This document shows, in pieces, positions 9,365 to 16,521 of a stretch of DNA of 64,000 nucleotides; positions within the stretch are counted from its first letter, which is position 1; each line of letters opens with the position of its first letter. The translations under genes and the position numbers were made by a program. The notes beneath the pieces are model-generated. The model made no database searches, was not told the DNA's origin, and saw nothing but the letters and a program-made list of their open reading frames with translations. The DNA comes from Reichenbachiella ulvae (GTDB lineage: Bacteria; Bacteroidota; Bacteroidia; Cytophagales; Cyclobacteriaceae). The stretch spans positions 4,728,501-4,792,500 of the forward strand of contig NZ_JAOYOD010000001.1 of NCBI RefSeq assembly GCF_025833875.1, written 5' to 3'.

Positions 9365-10606
9365 ATGGAATATCAGCGATTTGATTTAGAGAATGGATTG
9401 AAAGTGATTGTGCACGAGGATCACTCGACTCGTACAGCTGTGCTAAATCTGATGTATGACGTGGGGTCTCGGGATGAAAGTCCTGAGAAGACAGGTTTCG
9501 CGCATCTTTTCGAACATTTGATGTTTGGAGGTTCGGAGAATGTATCCAATTTCGATGATCCATTGCAAAAGGTAGGAGGAAATAATAATGCCTTTACCAG
9601 TCCTGATATGACCAATTATTACATGACGGTACCTTCCAATAATCTGGAAACGGCCTTTTGGTTGGAGTCGGATCGTATGCATGCCTTGTCTTTTGATCCT
9701 GTGGTGCTCGAGGTGCAGAGAAAAGTAGTGATAGAGGAATTTAATCAACGTTATCTCAACCAGCCCTATGGAGATGCCTGGCTTCAATTAAGACCCTTGG
9801 CTTACAAATCTCATCCCTACCGCTGGGCTACTATCGGGAAAGAAATTTCGCATATAGAAGAAGCTACCATGGATGATGTGAAATCCTTTTTCTATCAGCA
9901 CTATGTTCCCAACAATGCTGTTTTGGTCGTGGCAGGAGATGTGACGGTTGATCAAGTGAAGCACCTGGCTGAAAAGTGGTTTGGCCCTATCCCTGCCGGG
10001 AATCCAAACGCTAGAAATCTGCCTGTAGAACCAGAGCAAACTGAAAAGAGAAGCCTTCATGTGGAAGGTGATGTGCCTCTGGATGTCTTTTATCGTGTCT
10101 ATCCTATGGATGGTAGATTAGGGCAAAACTACCAGGTTCAGGATCTGTTGAGTGATGTTTTGGGGAGAGGAAAGTCATCCAGACTTTATCAAACTCTGGT
10201 GAAGGAAAAGCAATTGTTGAGTTCGGTTTCTGCCCATATTTCTGGATCTACAGATCCAGGTTTGATTGTGATCAATGGAAAGTTGAAAGAAGGAGTGAGC
10301 TTTGAAGAAGTGGATCTACTAGTGAATCAGGAAATCAATAACCTTATCACTAATGGTCTGCAGGTAGGGGAGTTAGACAGAGTCAAAGTGCATGCAGAGT
10401 CTTCTCATTTGTTTTCGGAAGTAGAATTGCTCAATCGTGCTATTAATCTGGCTTACTACACCTTGCTGGGCGATACGAGCTTGATAGACCGAGAGGTAGA
10501 GGCCATTCATGCGGTGACAGAGGAGCAATTGATCGATCAGGCAAAAAAAAGGTTGAGCCCCGAAAAGAGCTCAACCCTATATTATCATGCTAAGCGTGAG
10601 GCTTAA
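9365..10606 (+). CDS. M16 family zinc metallopeptidase
   Basis: The 413-residue protein has the inverted zinc motif HLFEH at residues 47-51 (H47, E50 catalytic, H51), followed by the KVVIEEFNQR block that supplies the third ligand. This is the small active-subunit type of insulinase/processing peptidase. No signal peptide is evident, so it acts in the cytoplasm or through a partner. A TATTTTTG -7-like element lies about 25 bases before the start. The gene is divergent from the E1 gene. Its stop codon lies inside the palindrome GCTTAAGC, which also carries the stop of the opposite gene (4-base overlap). Confidence 0.92.
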   Translation: MEYQRFDLENGLKVIVHEDHSTRTAVLNLMYDVGSRDESPEKTGFAHLFEHLMFGGSENVSNFDDPLQKVGGNNNAFTSPDMTNYYMTVPSNNLETAFWLESDRMHALSFDPVVLEVQRKVVIEEFNQRYLNQPYGDAWLQLRPLAYKSHPYRWATIGKEISHIEEATMDDVKSFFYQHYVPNNAVLVVAGDVTVDQVKHLAEKWFGPIPAGNPNARNLPVEPEQTEKRSLHVEGDVPLDVFYRVYPMDGRLGQNYQVQDLLSDVLGRGKSSRLYQTLVKEKQLLSSVSAHISGSTDPGLIVINGKLKEGVSFEEVDLLVNQEINNLITNGLQVGELDRVKVHAESSHLFSEVELLNRAINLAYYTLLGDTSLIDREVEAIHAVTEEQLIDQAKKRLSPEKSSTLYYHAKREA

Positions 10607-11235
10607 GCTTCTTTCCATTTGATCGTACAGCCTATGGCCTTAGTCGACTTTGTGGCTACTTCCTTACCTGCTAAAAGTTGATTGACGGCATCTGCCACGT
10701 AAAAAGTATCCGCTGAATTAGCGTCTTGAGGGTTGTTGTCTATGGCTCCAATATAAGACACCGTTAGATCCTTTCCATCTTTTTTCAAAACGTAAACATG
10801 TGGAGTTTTGGTAGCGCCGTAGGCTTTTGCTATCTCCTGGCTTTCGTCATAGAGATAAGGGAACGAATAATTCTTTTCTTTTGCTTGCTGTGCCATCGCT
10901 TCAAATGAGTCGCCAGGTTGTTTGGTTACATCATTAGAGTTGATCGCCAATACTGGATAGCCTTTGTCGGCAAATTGTTTGTTCAATTCGTCGATGCGGC
11001 TTTCGTATAGTTTGGCATATGGGCAAGTGTTGCAAGTAAAAACGACTATAAAGCCTTTTGCTTTTTTATAGTCTTCTGTCGATACCATTTTGCCATCTAC
11101 ATTTTTTAGCTCAAAGCCAATGGCCTTGTCTCCAACTTCATAACCTTCGCCCTTGGTGCCACCAAAGGCAGTGCCTATTAGTACGAGTAATAATAATCCT
11201 GTTTCAATTGCGAGTATGCTCAAATATTTTTTCAT
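10603..11235 (-). CDS. Exported thioredoxin-family (redoxin/AhpC-TSA-like) protein
   Basis: This 210-residue protein begins with a hydrophobic signal or anchor at ~4-25. A redoxin domain starts with YEVGDKAIGFELKNVDGK and carries a CNTCPYAK CxxC active site near residues 73-76. The TPHVYVLKKDG cis-proline region is also present. This subfamily (resembling resA-like and peroxiredoxin-like proteins) acts in the periplasm on thiols or peroxides. It follows the TlpA-like gene after 12 bases, so the two form one operon, probably for periplasmic redox control. Confidence 0.85.
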   Translation of the reverse strand: MKKYLSILAIETGLLLLVLIGTAFGGTKGEGYEVGDKAIGFELKNVDGKMVSTEDYKKAKGFIVVFTCNTCPYAKLYESRIDELNKQFADKGYPVLAINSNDVTKQPGDSFEAMAQQAKEKNYSFPYLYDESQEIAKAYGATKTPHVYVLKKDGKDLTVSYIGAIDNNPQDANSADTFYVADAVNQLLAGKEVATKSTKAIGCTIKWKEA

Positions 11236-11247
11236 GGGACTGTGGTT

Positions 11248-11739
11248 TTATTTTGTGAAATCAAGGTAAGCTTTTTCCAACTCACCTTCTTTAAACTCTT
11301 TTTCGAGAAATAATTTCTTTTCATTACGTGCGCTCAGCATCATAGTTGCAGGGATGGCCCCAGACCAGCTAGGATCGATCTTGTCTATAAAGGAATTGTA
11401 GTCTGTTTCGTCCAGTAAGTACAGTTTTGATTTGAGACCTTTCTTCTCTACGAATTTCTTCACCTTCCCCTCTAGATTGCTAGCGAAATCCATGCTCACG
11501 AGAATGACCTCTAGATTTTCATTTTTGTACTTTTCTAATAAAGCTTCGAACTGAGGAAGTTCCTTAACGCAGGGTCCGCACCAGGTAGCCCAAAAATTGA
11601 TGACTCTGTTATTGTCCGTTTTTGCATTTAGGATACTTTCCAGTTTTTCATACTTTATCACTTCTATATTCTGAGCTTGCGAAGTTGAAATGACCAAACT
11701 CAATACTACAATTGAAGCTAAGTAAGTGACTGTCTTCAT
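11248..11739 (-). CDS. TlpA/ResA-like periplasmic thiol-disulfide oxidoreductase
   Basis: The protein has 163 residues. The signal peptide is ~1-22 (MKTVTYLASIVVLSLVISTS, AQ). A thioredoxin fold carries the classical WCGPC active site near residues 54-58, preceded by INFWAT. The helix after the active site and the Pro of AIPATMML complete the fold. It is first in a two-gene minus-strand operon with the redoxin. Members of this family reduce periplasmic disulfides, for example in cytochrome c maturation; no haem-lyase neighbour is present here. Confidence 0.9.
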   Translation of the reverse strand: MKTVTYLASIVVLSLVISTSQAQNIEVIKYEKLESILNAKTDNNRVINFWATWCGPCVKELPQFEALLEKYKNENLEVILVSMDFASNLEGKVKKFVEKKGLKSKLYLLDETDYNSFIDKIDPSWSGAIPATMMLSARNEKKLFLEKEFKEGELEKAYLDFTK

Positions 11740-12031
11740 ATTAACGGTTTGTTTATAAATGATAACTCTAAATATAATGTCTTTAGGTTGAATTTAATAA
11801 GATGTTGTGGCAGGTGGTAATAGTGTACTGAGGCAGTTTTTATACTGAAAGTACAATTCGTGTAATTATTTAATTTTATCCACAATTTGAGTAGTTATCC
11901 ACATAGGCGTGAAAATCAGCGATAATTTATTTTAATCGGGTTTGTTTTGTGGGTTTTAAATAACTGTCTGTGGATAAATTAAAATGCGTTGTTGTGAAAA
12001 TTTGTACAGGTCTTGGAAAAGTCTAATTTGT
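11740..12031. other. AT-rich intergenic region with three perfect DnaA boxes (candidate oriC)
   Basis: No gene is visible in this 292-bp gap. It holds TTATCCACA at 11876-11884 and 11895-11903 on the plus strand and its exact complement TGTGGATAA at 11969-11977. The surroundings are very AT-rich (TTTAATTTTA, GATAATTTATTTTAAT, TAAATTAAAAT). Three perfect consensus DnaA boxes within 102 bp are far more than chance predicts. rpmH-rnpA, often near bacterial origins, starts 4 kb to the right. It could be oriC, a DnaA-titrating site, or a DnaA-regulated promoter of the operon starting at 11739. Confidence 0.6.
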
Positions 12032-13813
12032 TTATTCTTTGTCTGTTGAGATCAGTCTGTTTCTATAGGCATTAAAAATGCGTGATTTGGACAGGAATCC
12101 CAGATATTTACCGTTTTCTATCACGGGTAAATTCCAGGCTTGCGTGACTTCAAATTTATTCATCACTTCTTCCATAGAATCTTTTGGGTCCACTTCGGCA
12201 GGAGGGAGTTGCATAACCTGCTTTACGATGATTTGAGAACGTTTTTCCGGATCAAACATTTTTTCTCGGATGTCATCCAGAGTCACAATGCCTTCCAAAC
12301 CGCCTTCATAATTCAAAACGGGGAAAATGTTCCGTTTGGATATTTTTACGAGATCGATCAAATCGTCTAACGATGCATCATACTTGATCGAGAGTAAATC
12401 AGACTCTATCAATTTGCGCATTTTCATCTGGCTAAGGACCTGTCTGTCCTTGTCATGCTGGATCAAATCCCCTTTCTCTATCAGTGGCTTGGTGTATAGA
12501 GAGTAAGGCTCAAAATAATTGATGGTAGTAAAAGAAATGGCTGAAACCAGCATCAGTGGTACGAAAAGTTCGTAACCTCCTGTGATCTCTGCAATCAGAA
12601 ATATGGCTGTCAAAGGTGCGTGTAACACTCCGCTCATTACTCCGCACATACCGACCAGGGTGAAGTGGCTGGTGTCGATCTGGACAGGCAGAATGTAATT
12701 GATCGTACGAGCGAAAAGATAGCCGCCAATACCTCCCATGAAAAGAGAAGGAGCAAAAATACCTCCGCTACCCCCAGCTCCAATTGTCAAAGCAGAGGCC
12801 ACAGGTTTGATTACCAGAATGGCAAAAAGCAGCACGATAACTAGCAACGTCTGATCTGTTTCGCCATAGATCATGCTTTCATCAAAAATAACTGCGTCAT
12901 TTCCGTTGAGCAGATTCAAGATTACATTGTAACCCTCACCATAGATGGGAGGGAAGGCCAAAATGATAATGGCCAGCCCAACTCCGCCAAGCAGGGCTCG
13001 ATTCATGTCGTTTTTAATTTTTTCTATACTGTTCTCGACCAGGTAGGTGAGTCGAGTAAAGTGCACCGAGATGATACCGCAAGCGATACCAAGTAAGATG
13101 TAATAATGAATATGTTCAGGTTTGAATGCTTCGTGCAGCTTAAATGAAAATAGAAGTTCTCTACCCAAAAGTGTATAGGAAACCATCGATCCGACCACAG
13201 AAGAAATGAGGATTGGAATGAATTTGTTGATGGTAACATCAGTTAGGATCACCTCTATGGCGAAGATTACACCTGCAATAGGAGAGTTGAAGATCGCTGA
13301 GATAGCGCCCGATGCTCCACAAGCTATCAGTAGAGTTCGTTTCTTGTAGTTCATGTGGGTCAAGCGACCCAGGTTAGACCCTATGGCAGAACCCGTGACT
13401 ACAATAGGTGCCTCTAGCCCGACAGATCCTCCAAAGCCTACTGTGATGGCTGAGGTGACCATTCGTGTGTAGGTCAGGGTTCTTTTGACTACACTAGATC
13501 TTTTGGAAATGTAGTATAGGATTTTGGTGATCCCATGTCCGCCAATATGTGTGCTTTTGAAAATGTACTTAGAAATCAGTACTGTCAGGATAATACCGAT
13601 GACCGGATAGATCATGTAGAGAAAGCTGAGGCCACTGTTTTCTTGGTAGTCACTCAATAGATGCTGAATCAGATGTACGGCACTTTTGAGTGTAACTGCG
13701 GCAAAACCAGATACAAGGCCGACGATTCCACTCATGATTAGAATGAAGTTGTTGTTGCTGATGTGTTTTAGCCGCCATACCAAAAACTTTACCAGCAAGT
13801 CTTTTAAATTCAT
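12032..13813 (-). CDS. CLC-family chloride channel/transporter with C-terminal CBS domains
   Basis: This 593-residue membrane protein has the CLC fold over residues ~15-430. GLEAP corresponds to the GxEGP selectivity segment and keeps the gating glutamate, and GAGGSGGIFAPSLFMGG is the downstream anion-site motif. Two CBS domains occupy ~455-590 (FPVLNYEGGLEGIVTLDDI, WNLPVIENGKYLGFLS) and may bind adenine nucleotides to regulate gating. The family moves Cl- either passively or in exchange for H+; the retained gating Glu is compatible with exchange. It lies 97 bases downstream of the M61 peptidase gene on the same strand and could be co-transcribed. Confidence 0.93.
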   Translation of the reverse strand: MNLKDLLVKFLVWRLKHISNNNFILIMSGIVGLVSGFAAVTLKSAVHLIQHLLSDYQENSGLSFLYMIYPVIGIILTVLISKYIFKSTHIGGHGITKILYYISKRSSVVKRTLTYTRMVTSAITVGFGGSVGLEAPIVVTGSAIGSNLGRLTHMNYKKRTLLIACGASGAISAIFNSPIAGVIFAIEVILTDVTINKFIPILISSVVGSMVSYTLLGRELLFSFKLHEAFKPEHIHYYILLGIACGIISVHFTRLTYLVENSIEKIKNDMNRALLGGVGLAIIILAFPPIYGEGYNVILNLLNGNDAVIFDESMIYGETDQTLLVIVLLFAILVIKPVASALTIGAGGSGGIFAPSLFMGGIGGYLFARTINYILPVQIDTSHFTLVGMCGVMSGVLHAPLTAIFLIAEITGGYELFVPLMLVSAISFTTINYFEPYSLYTKPLIEKGDLIQHDKDRQVLSQMKMRKLIESDLLSIKYDASLDDLIDLVKISKRNIFPVLNYEGGLEGIVTLDDIREKMFDPEKRSQIIVKQVMQLPPAEVDPKDSMEEVMNKFEVTQAWNLPVIENGKYLGFLSKSRIFNAYRNRLISTDKE

Positions 13814-15927: not shown

Positions 15928-16086
15928 ATGAAAAGAACATTTCAACCTTCGCAGAGAAAAAGAAAAAATAAGCACGGATTCAGATCTAGAATGGAGAGTG
16001 CTAACGGTAGATCTGTGATTGCTAGAAGAAGAGCAAAAGGCAGAAAAAAATTGACCGTTTCTGACGAAAGAAGTCACAAGAAGTAA
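15928..16086 (+). CDS. rpmH: Large ribosomal subunit protein bL34
   Basis: The gene encodes 52 residues beginning [20 protein letters not shown] and containing the family core [22 protein letters not shown]. The universal start MKRTFQPS fixes the ATG at 15928. It is a component of the 50S subunit. It directly precedes rnpA, the widespread gene order, and is read from the strong promoter at 15784-15814. Confidence 0.98.
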
Positions 16087-16119
16087 GATTTGCTTACTTT
16101 TATTCCTTCTACATCTGAT

Positions 16120-16521
16120 ATGAAGGAAGGAAAAGATACGGATAAGAAATTTGGTTTTTCTAAAGCAGAAAGACTCAATAGCAAAAAGGAAATAGATGCT
16201 CTTTTTCAAAAAGGAGCATCTTTTTATTTTTATCCCTTTCTGATCAAATACTCCCCTTCTGAAAACTCTGAGGCTCAATGCCATCAGGCCCTGATATCTG
16301 TGTCTAAGCGAAATTTCAAAAGAGCAGTAGACAGAAATCGGGTCAAGCGACTGGTGAGGGAGTCTTATCGCCTCAACAAAGCAATACTGGACGACACTGG
16401 GCAGTATTATTCGATTGCTTATATTTACACTGCTAAAGAAATACACAAATTTGCTTTTGTGCAGAAAAAACTAATTGGCGCCTTGAAGCGTTTATTAGCT
16501 CAAATCGAAAAACAGGCGTAA
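16120..16521 (+). CDS. rnpA: Ribonuclease P protein component
   Basis: The protein is 133 residues from the ATG at 16120. A TTG at 16090 in the same frame would add ten residues that lack family character. FSKAERLNSKKEIDALFQKG opens the fold, and the RNA-binding RNR signature is present as SVSKRNFKRAVDRNRVKRLVRE. It binds the RNase P RNA and assists 5' maturation of tRNAs. The RNA subunit gene is not in the window. The stop codon is immediately followed by the ATG of the S41 peptidase. Confidence 0.96.
   Translation: MKEGKDTDKKFGFSKAERLNSKKEIDALFQKGASFYFYPFLIKYSPSENSEAQCHQALISVSKRNFKRAVDRNRVKRLVRESYRLNKAILDDTGQYYSIAYIYTAKEIHKFAFVQKKLIGALKRLLAQIEKQA

Follow-up and report, generated by a model that had tools for sequence, protein, structure and literature searches.

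A conserved, non-coding element with three DnaA boxes in Reichenbachiella ulvae is probably a DnaA-binding control element outside the replication origin (oriC), of the kind represented by datA of E. coli and the DnaA-box clusters (DBCs) of B. subtilis. This locus of the Cytophagales is best read as one that would sequester or inactivate DnaA in a datA/DBC-like manner, and by analogy with the E. coli and Bacillus elements it probably limits how often copying begins. A DnaA-titration site was a minor alternative in the initial annotation of this DNA; for a conserved element outside oriC it is the proposal that fits best. The window (the whole stretch of DNA that was analysed, 64,000 nt) comprises bases 4728501-4792500 of a 5.50-Mb contig, and the assembly is 98.8% complete.

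The three-box element and its distribution

The tandem pair of the element consists of an outer direct box, TTATCCACA (11876..11884, + strand; an exact match, aligned to the end of the profile R1 described below), and an inner direct box 10 bp from it (11895..11903, +). The inverted box (11969..11977, −) is found 65 bp from the inner direct box; both of these are also exact and are conserved in relatives. The whole element spans 11876..11977 (G000:C1:4740376-4740477, G000 being the genome of the window) and lies on the − strand with respect to the R1 consensus, with the geometry TTATCCACA-N65-TGTGGATAA-N10-TGTGGATAA, which recurs in relatives; the two boxes of its inverted pair start 74 bp from each other. 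It is located in an intergenic gap between two genes (11740..12031), and the AT-richness noted in the initial annotation is seen here as 70.5% AT for the gap vs 57.4% for the whole window. The three exact boxes within 102 bp are present as that annotation had described them, and no other exact TTATCCACA is found on either strand of the 64,000 nt. Its expectation of about one exact box per window by chance agrees with dinucleotide shuffles, which contain 0.82 on average. The box count alone is weak evidence, since three or more boxes are reached in 9/100 shuffles, and it is the clustering of the boxes in 102 bp which is far beyond chance (Poisson estimate for box triples within 102 bp: 7e-7 per window and about 6e-5 per genome).

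Conservation of the boxes in relatives had been suggested as a check, and the same arrangement recurs in both genus and family. In the relatives reached via the TlpA-like neighbour, a box is followed after ~65-72 bp by an inverted box and after a further 10-12 bp by a second inverted box, so that the conserved element measures about 102-110 bp. The spacer between the inverted boxes varies from 65 to 72 bp with an sd of 1.3 (42 rows, in which two elements are counted twice, leaving 40 distinct ones). At the level of the order, the two-box pattern is present in 49/291 genomes, a part of which are oriC-like loci with many boxes, and the reversed control pattern has no match among those listed. 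A search of named genomes with the three-box pattern gives at least 120 loci with at least 122 matches. Among the matches listed, 67 have N67-69/N11 spacing with at most four boxes, and their titles are those of Algoriphagus, Belliella, Echinicola and other Cytophagales or Bacteroidetes; many of the remaining three-box matches listed belong to Bacillaceae, and the rest also include oriC-like loci.

The 67 N67-69/N11 matches listed were reduced to 63 non-redundant N11 elements, from which the sequence-only profile R1 was built. The window's element and six elements of its genus were excluded from the training because they are of the N10 type. R1 has a single match in the window's genome, exactly at the element (E 7.4e-8), and the other genus elements (6/6) score 28.7-38.8 bits. 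Among the family genomes, 104/118 are matched at E<=0.01 and 96 below 1e-5; an uncounted part of these genomes contributed to R1. The 14/118 family genomes with no R1 match include the one-contig genomes G019, G321 and G369; no element is seen in G006. Eight family matches are weak, with E from 8e-5 to 4e-3 (G017, G267, G317, G320, G335, G352, G384 and G388), and these may be hits to oriC, which itself can score in that E range. In the order sample R1 matches 98/291 genomes at E<=0.001, comprising 42/42 of the window's family f1 (G267 weakly), 7/8 of family f5 and mostly weak matches in other families; 57 genomes of this sample have one match each below 1e-6. In the class sample 25/247 genomes are matched at E<=0.01 and just six below 1e-6, all of them f1. 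Based on its sequence, the element is conserved family-wide, with one strong locus per matching genome.

Two further observations concern individual loci. In G001, two more exact boxes are found on the tlpA side (L013:1933-1941 and 2035-2043); one of them is intergenic and the other falls in the early part of the TlpA-like gene. Three MAGs titled Spirosoma fluviale (L146, L195 and L206) contain the element of the window's family, with CLC adjoining it in L195 and L206; their labels may be wrong.

Position relative to the replication origin

Genome-wide, 44 exact DnaA boxes are found, and the only other tight group lies at 4123882-4124174 (three exact). The likely oriC (L040:6804-7175, G000:C1:4123803-4124174) contains these three together with five one-mismatch boxes in 372 bp; it lies in the gap separating a TPR gene from an Ig-like-domain gene and at that gap's edge, and mnmG is about 2.6 kb away. 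GC skew, taken from sampled stretches and not cumulatively, is negative in 17/18 stretches from 1.3 to 4.135 Mb, mixed in six from 4.15 to 4.27 Mb and positive in 14/16 from 4.3 Mb via the contig ends to 1.2 Mb. This pattern of signs therefore places one skew switch at about 4.12-4.30 Mb, bordered by the box cluster, and the opposite one near 1.2 Mb. The element is 616 kb from the cluster at 4.124 Mb, inside one replichore.

These data bear on the candidate replication origin proposed in the initial annotation. Three exact boxes, an AT-rich gap and the proximity of rpmH-rnpA agree with such an origin, or a second one. The latter genes do lie 4 kb to the right, as had been noted (15928-16521, +); rnpA is recognised by Pfam PF00825, and the adjacent ORF, judged by eye, is one that we take to be rpmH. 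However, the sampled skew is positive in 8/8 of the window's 8-kb stretches, to the left of the element as well as to its right, with no change of sign at the element as an oriC would require. The sign change lies instead near the cluster beside mnmG, and within its 372 bp this cluster has eight boxes, counting exact and one-mismatch ones, vs three in the element, which is not the densest one; three or four boxes are usual for the element. The same pattern is repeated in G001 of the same genus (one contig), where a similar box cluster is found at 1324190-1324492, the sampled skew flips between 1.35 and 1.45 Mb, and the copy of the element is 620 kb from the cluster. A skew switch elsewhere and another, richer box cluster are the observations that the annotation had itself named as counting against an origin, and because of both the proposal fails; we reject it as very improbable. 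The likely oriC and the element share DnaA boxes and a central motif, and in the window's family a search for origins that relies solely on exact DnaA boxes can land on the element.

Elsewhere the origin is placed less directly: in most relatives by one neighbouring gene and near-boxes only, while G033 has no clear switch in its sampled skew. In the window's genome dnaA is found at 316.6 kb of the contig, away from both the element and the likely oriC; on a circular contig, this gene (G000:C1:316574-317059, L009) would be separated from the likely oriC by about 1.7 Mb. G116, which belongs to a different family within the order, has 34 DnaA boxes, exact or variant, in ~1.2 kb (L069:654-1817); this is probably an oriC.

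Concerning its distance from oriC, the element is 11.2% of the chromosome away in the window's genome; three further members of the genus have values of 13.9-18.3%, and eight other genera have 1.4-7.4%. It is within 19% in the 14 genomes measured and at 1.4-18.3% in 9/9 family genera measured. The distance test covers 13 family genomes in which a single large contig holds both loci, using the largest value per genus for nine genera. Compared with a uniform spread these nine values give p 1e-5, to be read with the values not being independent and several genome sizes being rounded. G033, of another family, stands outside the test, and G003, G014, G022, G023, G142, G325, G346, G354 and G362 were left out. 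The contigs of G000, G003 and G005 were taken as circular. A fixed distance was rejected, the values ranging from about 13 kb (G022) to 883 kb (G002), as was a fixed orientation: the tandem pair faces oriC in 5/5 genomes of the window's genus and in 9/17 others (8 away). The closeness to oriC may be inherited and not selected.

The central palindrome and the neighbouring genes

Most elements contain, between the inverted boxes, a palindrome near TAANNNNYTGAWWWTCARNNNNTTA, which resembles a doubled IHF/HU site; each half resembles WATCARNNNNTTR, which we take to be the IHF consensus. The DnaA boxes of most relatives flank this predicted bending motif. It is found at one offset in 61/63 training elements, and at least 14/17 of its positions are present in 56/63 of them vs about 2% of shuffled spacers, a comparison that is partly circular because these elements are also where the motif was first recognised by eye. 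With a weight matrix made from the training elements and 500 shuffles per element, 26/30 distinct held-out elements have p<=0.002 at no more than 2 bp from the predicted position; held-out elements are no more than 75% identical to any training element, although some rows come from training-set genera. Here L067-L069 were left out as oriC-like, and L022 was scored in both orientations with the better one counted. In the window's copy the corresponding place (11921..11949, −) is weak (score -0.2, shuffle mean -11.9, p 0.018). Weak palindromes are also seen in its relatives G007 (p 0.074), G003 (p 0.502) and G001 (p 0.040); the palindrome is retained in G002, G004 and G005, which belong to the same genus.

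The motif was also counted in sampled genomic DNA against column-permuted matrices, which it exceeds at score 14, most clearly in G033. Hits of score 14 number 10 vs a mean of 0.7 in G033, 5 vs 1.5 in G000 (control maximum 4), 3 vs 0.5 in G001 and 3 vs 0.6 in G005; at score 10 the count in G001 is not above the controls (6 vs 6.4), and that in G000 (32) falls within a control range whose maximum is 35. The motif is also present, with a score of 14.0 at 4123960, in the likely oriC of the window's genome. To examine oriC flanks, 30 oriC-gene loci were collected (14 + 15, one shared, and L040), of which 26 were used, without L301, L302, L040 and the duplicate of the shared locus. In 16/26 of these putative oriC flanks the best hit of the motif falls at nearly the same place (scores 8.0 to 19.5), and inside the densest box window a score of at least 12 is reached in just 10/26.

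The inverted boxes TTATCCACA and TGTGGATAA are complementary, with a palindrome in the spacer, and could thus be thought of as the stem of an RNA hairpin instead of DnaA sites. Over the 42 rows (preselected, with no more than one box mismatch) the 9-bp stem has 372 pairs kept, 6 broken and 0 compensatory, and no Rfam match is found here at gathering scores; with neither compensatory change nor Rfam match we disfavour the hairpin, whose probability we regard as minimal.

The gap is bordered by a TlpA/ResA-like thioredoxin-fold gene which starts at it (11248..11739, −) and by a CLC chloride channel gene with CBS domains which ends at it (12032..13813, −); both are neighbours and not parts of the element. 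The window's element precedes the TlpA-like gene by 137 bp and follows CLC by 58 bp. Among the 42 rows, from which L067-L069 were left out as oriC-like, 18 have both genes, 12 only CLC, 4 only TlpA and 8 neither within the 3-kb locus; the distance to tlpA is 85-394 bp and that to CLC 57-148 bp (40 distinct elements). Among the 67 N67-69/N11 matches listed, 48 have only CLC, 6 both, 3 only TlpA and 10 neither (some of them near the locus end), and the distance to CLC is often nearly constant within Algoriphagus. CLC is the usual neighbour without being required; which genes adjoin the element, and at what distance, varies more than the spacer does.

DnaA is a known transcription factor, and the position in the window, together with CLC adjoining 54/67 of the N67-69/N11 elements among the matches listed, would suit a DnaA-responsive promoter or roadblock controlling tlpA or CLC. 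Against this, no fixed place is seen relative to one conserved gene start: tlpA is 85-394 bp away, with a neighbour undetected in part of the rows (neither gene in 8/42, only CLC in 12/42), and CLC ends, not starts, at the window's element. Promoter-like matches are at chance level (3 vs a shuffle mean of 2.5) and no terminator-like site is found at the element. With neighbours and distances so variable, control of these genes is disfavoured and appears improbable; the DnaA-controlled promoter for the operon at 10603-11739, suggested in the initial annotation, fits poorly with an element that persists where this operon is not detected next to it.

Comparison with known systems and proposed mechanism

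E. coli datA is described as a non-coding site outside oriC with three essential DnaA boxes, one stimulatory box and a single IHF site, which acts by DnaA-ATP hydrolysis (PMC10950094); it is close to oriC (PMC4585315), and E. coli DnaA boxes are reported to accumulate towards the origin (PMC12371093). The datA stretch of E. coli K-12 contains, in order, an exact box, an IHF consensus and two near-boxes (boxes 2, 3 and 4 in our own naming). Both datA and the element are non-coding and origin-proximal yet outside oriC (the element being 11% of the chromosome away). They differ in that the outer boxes of datA are 162-174 bp apart, start to start, vs 74-81 bp in the element, and the IHF consensus of datA is one-sided, unlike the palindrome of the element; datA adjoins glyVXY. 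No sequence homology is detected, the best score of R1 against E. coli datA and DARS being 8.1 bits (E 0.46). By anatomy the element is like datA and the DBCs, and by sequence it is not a datA homologue.

DARS1 and DARS2 of E. coli are, like the element, non-coding DnaA sites with several boxes, and a DARS-like site recharging ADP-DnaA, or a DnaA-bound anchor for chromosome organisation, is an alternative that we consider unlikely. Three boxes and a bending site would also fit a reactivating or architectural complex, sequence does not tell activation from inactivation, and DARS2 is itself described as regulated by IHF and Fis (PMC4245941). However, the inverted pair of the DARS1 stretch, in our own box assignment, is 14 bp apart vs 74 bp in the element, which lacks such a tight core pair, and the near-boxes of DARS2 are similarly tight. 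R1 has no convincing match in DARS1 or DARS2, and the element is close to oriC, as datA is reported to be (PMC4585315).

In B. subtilis, six DnaA-box clusters outside oriC are described, whose joint loss leads to early initiation (PMC5295017). They share with the element that both are box clusters outside oriC; B. subtilis has six of them, whereas a genome with the element has a single strong match. The account of the clusters drawn on here (PMC5295017) names no nucleoid-protein site, and the element has a candidate one.

For the element as a control element of the datA/DBC kind, we infer from its anatomy and conservation the binding of DnaA and of an HU/IHF-type protein, looping, and an effect on initiation. 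DnaA would occupy each of the three boxes, and an HU/IHF-type protein would, in most relatives, bend the spacer of roughly 68 bp at the central palindrome, and the bend would join the inverted box and the tandem pair in one DnaA complex. As replication would pass the locus shortly after initiation, the presence of two copies would reduce the pool of free or ATP-bound DnaA and restrain re-initiation. The bending site looks degraded in the subclade to which the window belongs, so that sequestration may dominate in it. A more specific model can be offered tentatively: a dedicated single locus of the Cytophagales, in which an HU/IHF-family protein folds the 68-bp spacer and DnaA on the inverted boxes forms an ATP-hydrolysing or sequestering complex, would be datA-like and of separate origin. 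The HU/IHF-family protein would probably be a homodimer reading the symmetric site TAANNNNYTGAWWWTCARNNNNTTA; as oriC would rely on that bending site too, a single protein could move DnaA from firing to shut-off and back.

Concerning the regulators, the window's genome contains two HU/IHF-family genes, the better of which resembles IHF-beta models below their cut-offs (63.1 vs 119.95 bits). One PF00308 protein is present in the genome, and it is DnaA with all three Pfam domains; no Hda is therefore found by this model, which we assume would match Hda. SeqA has no match in this genome. If the specific model is true, a datA-like system has arisen apart from that of E. coli, in bacteria in which SeqA and Hda are not detected. 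Among the papers listed in a literature search, none concerned a DnaA-box cluster outside oriC in Bacteroidota or the means by which Bacteroidota prevent over-initiation. The conserved element of ~102-110 bp is a precise target for deletion, relocation or footprinting, with which an independent rise of datA-like control in another phylum could be tested.

A tandem and inverted three-box arrangement is also seen in Bacillaceae, with N68-70 and N13, at no fewer than 11 loci (at least L095, L103, L105, L111, L113, L132, L134, L149, L155, L168 and L169). No dnaA is found in these 5-8-kb loci with a Cytophagales DnaA as the query, and the central palindrome is not apparent in them by eye; they are possibly the DnaA-box clusters of these bacteria. 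At least five records (L104, L109, L143, L150 and L192) form another class of Bacillaceae type, which has N63 and N12 spacing and similar spacers.
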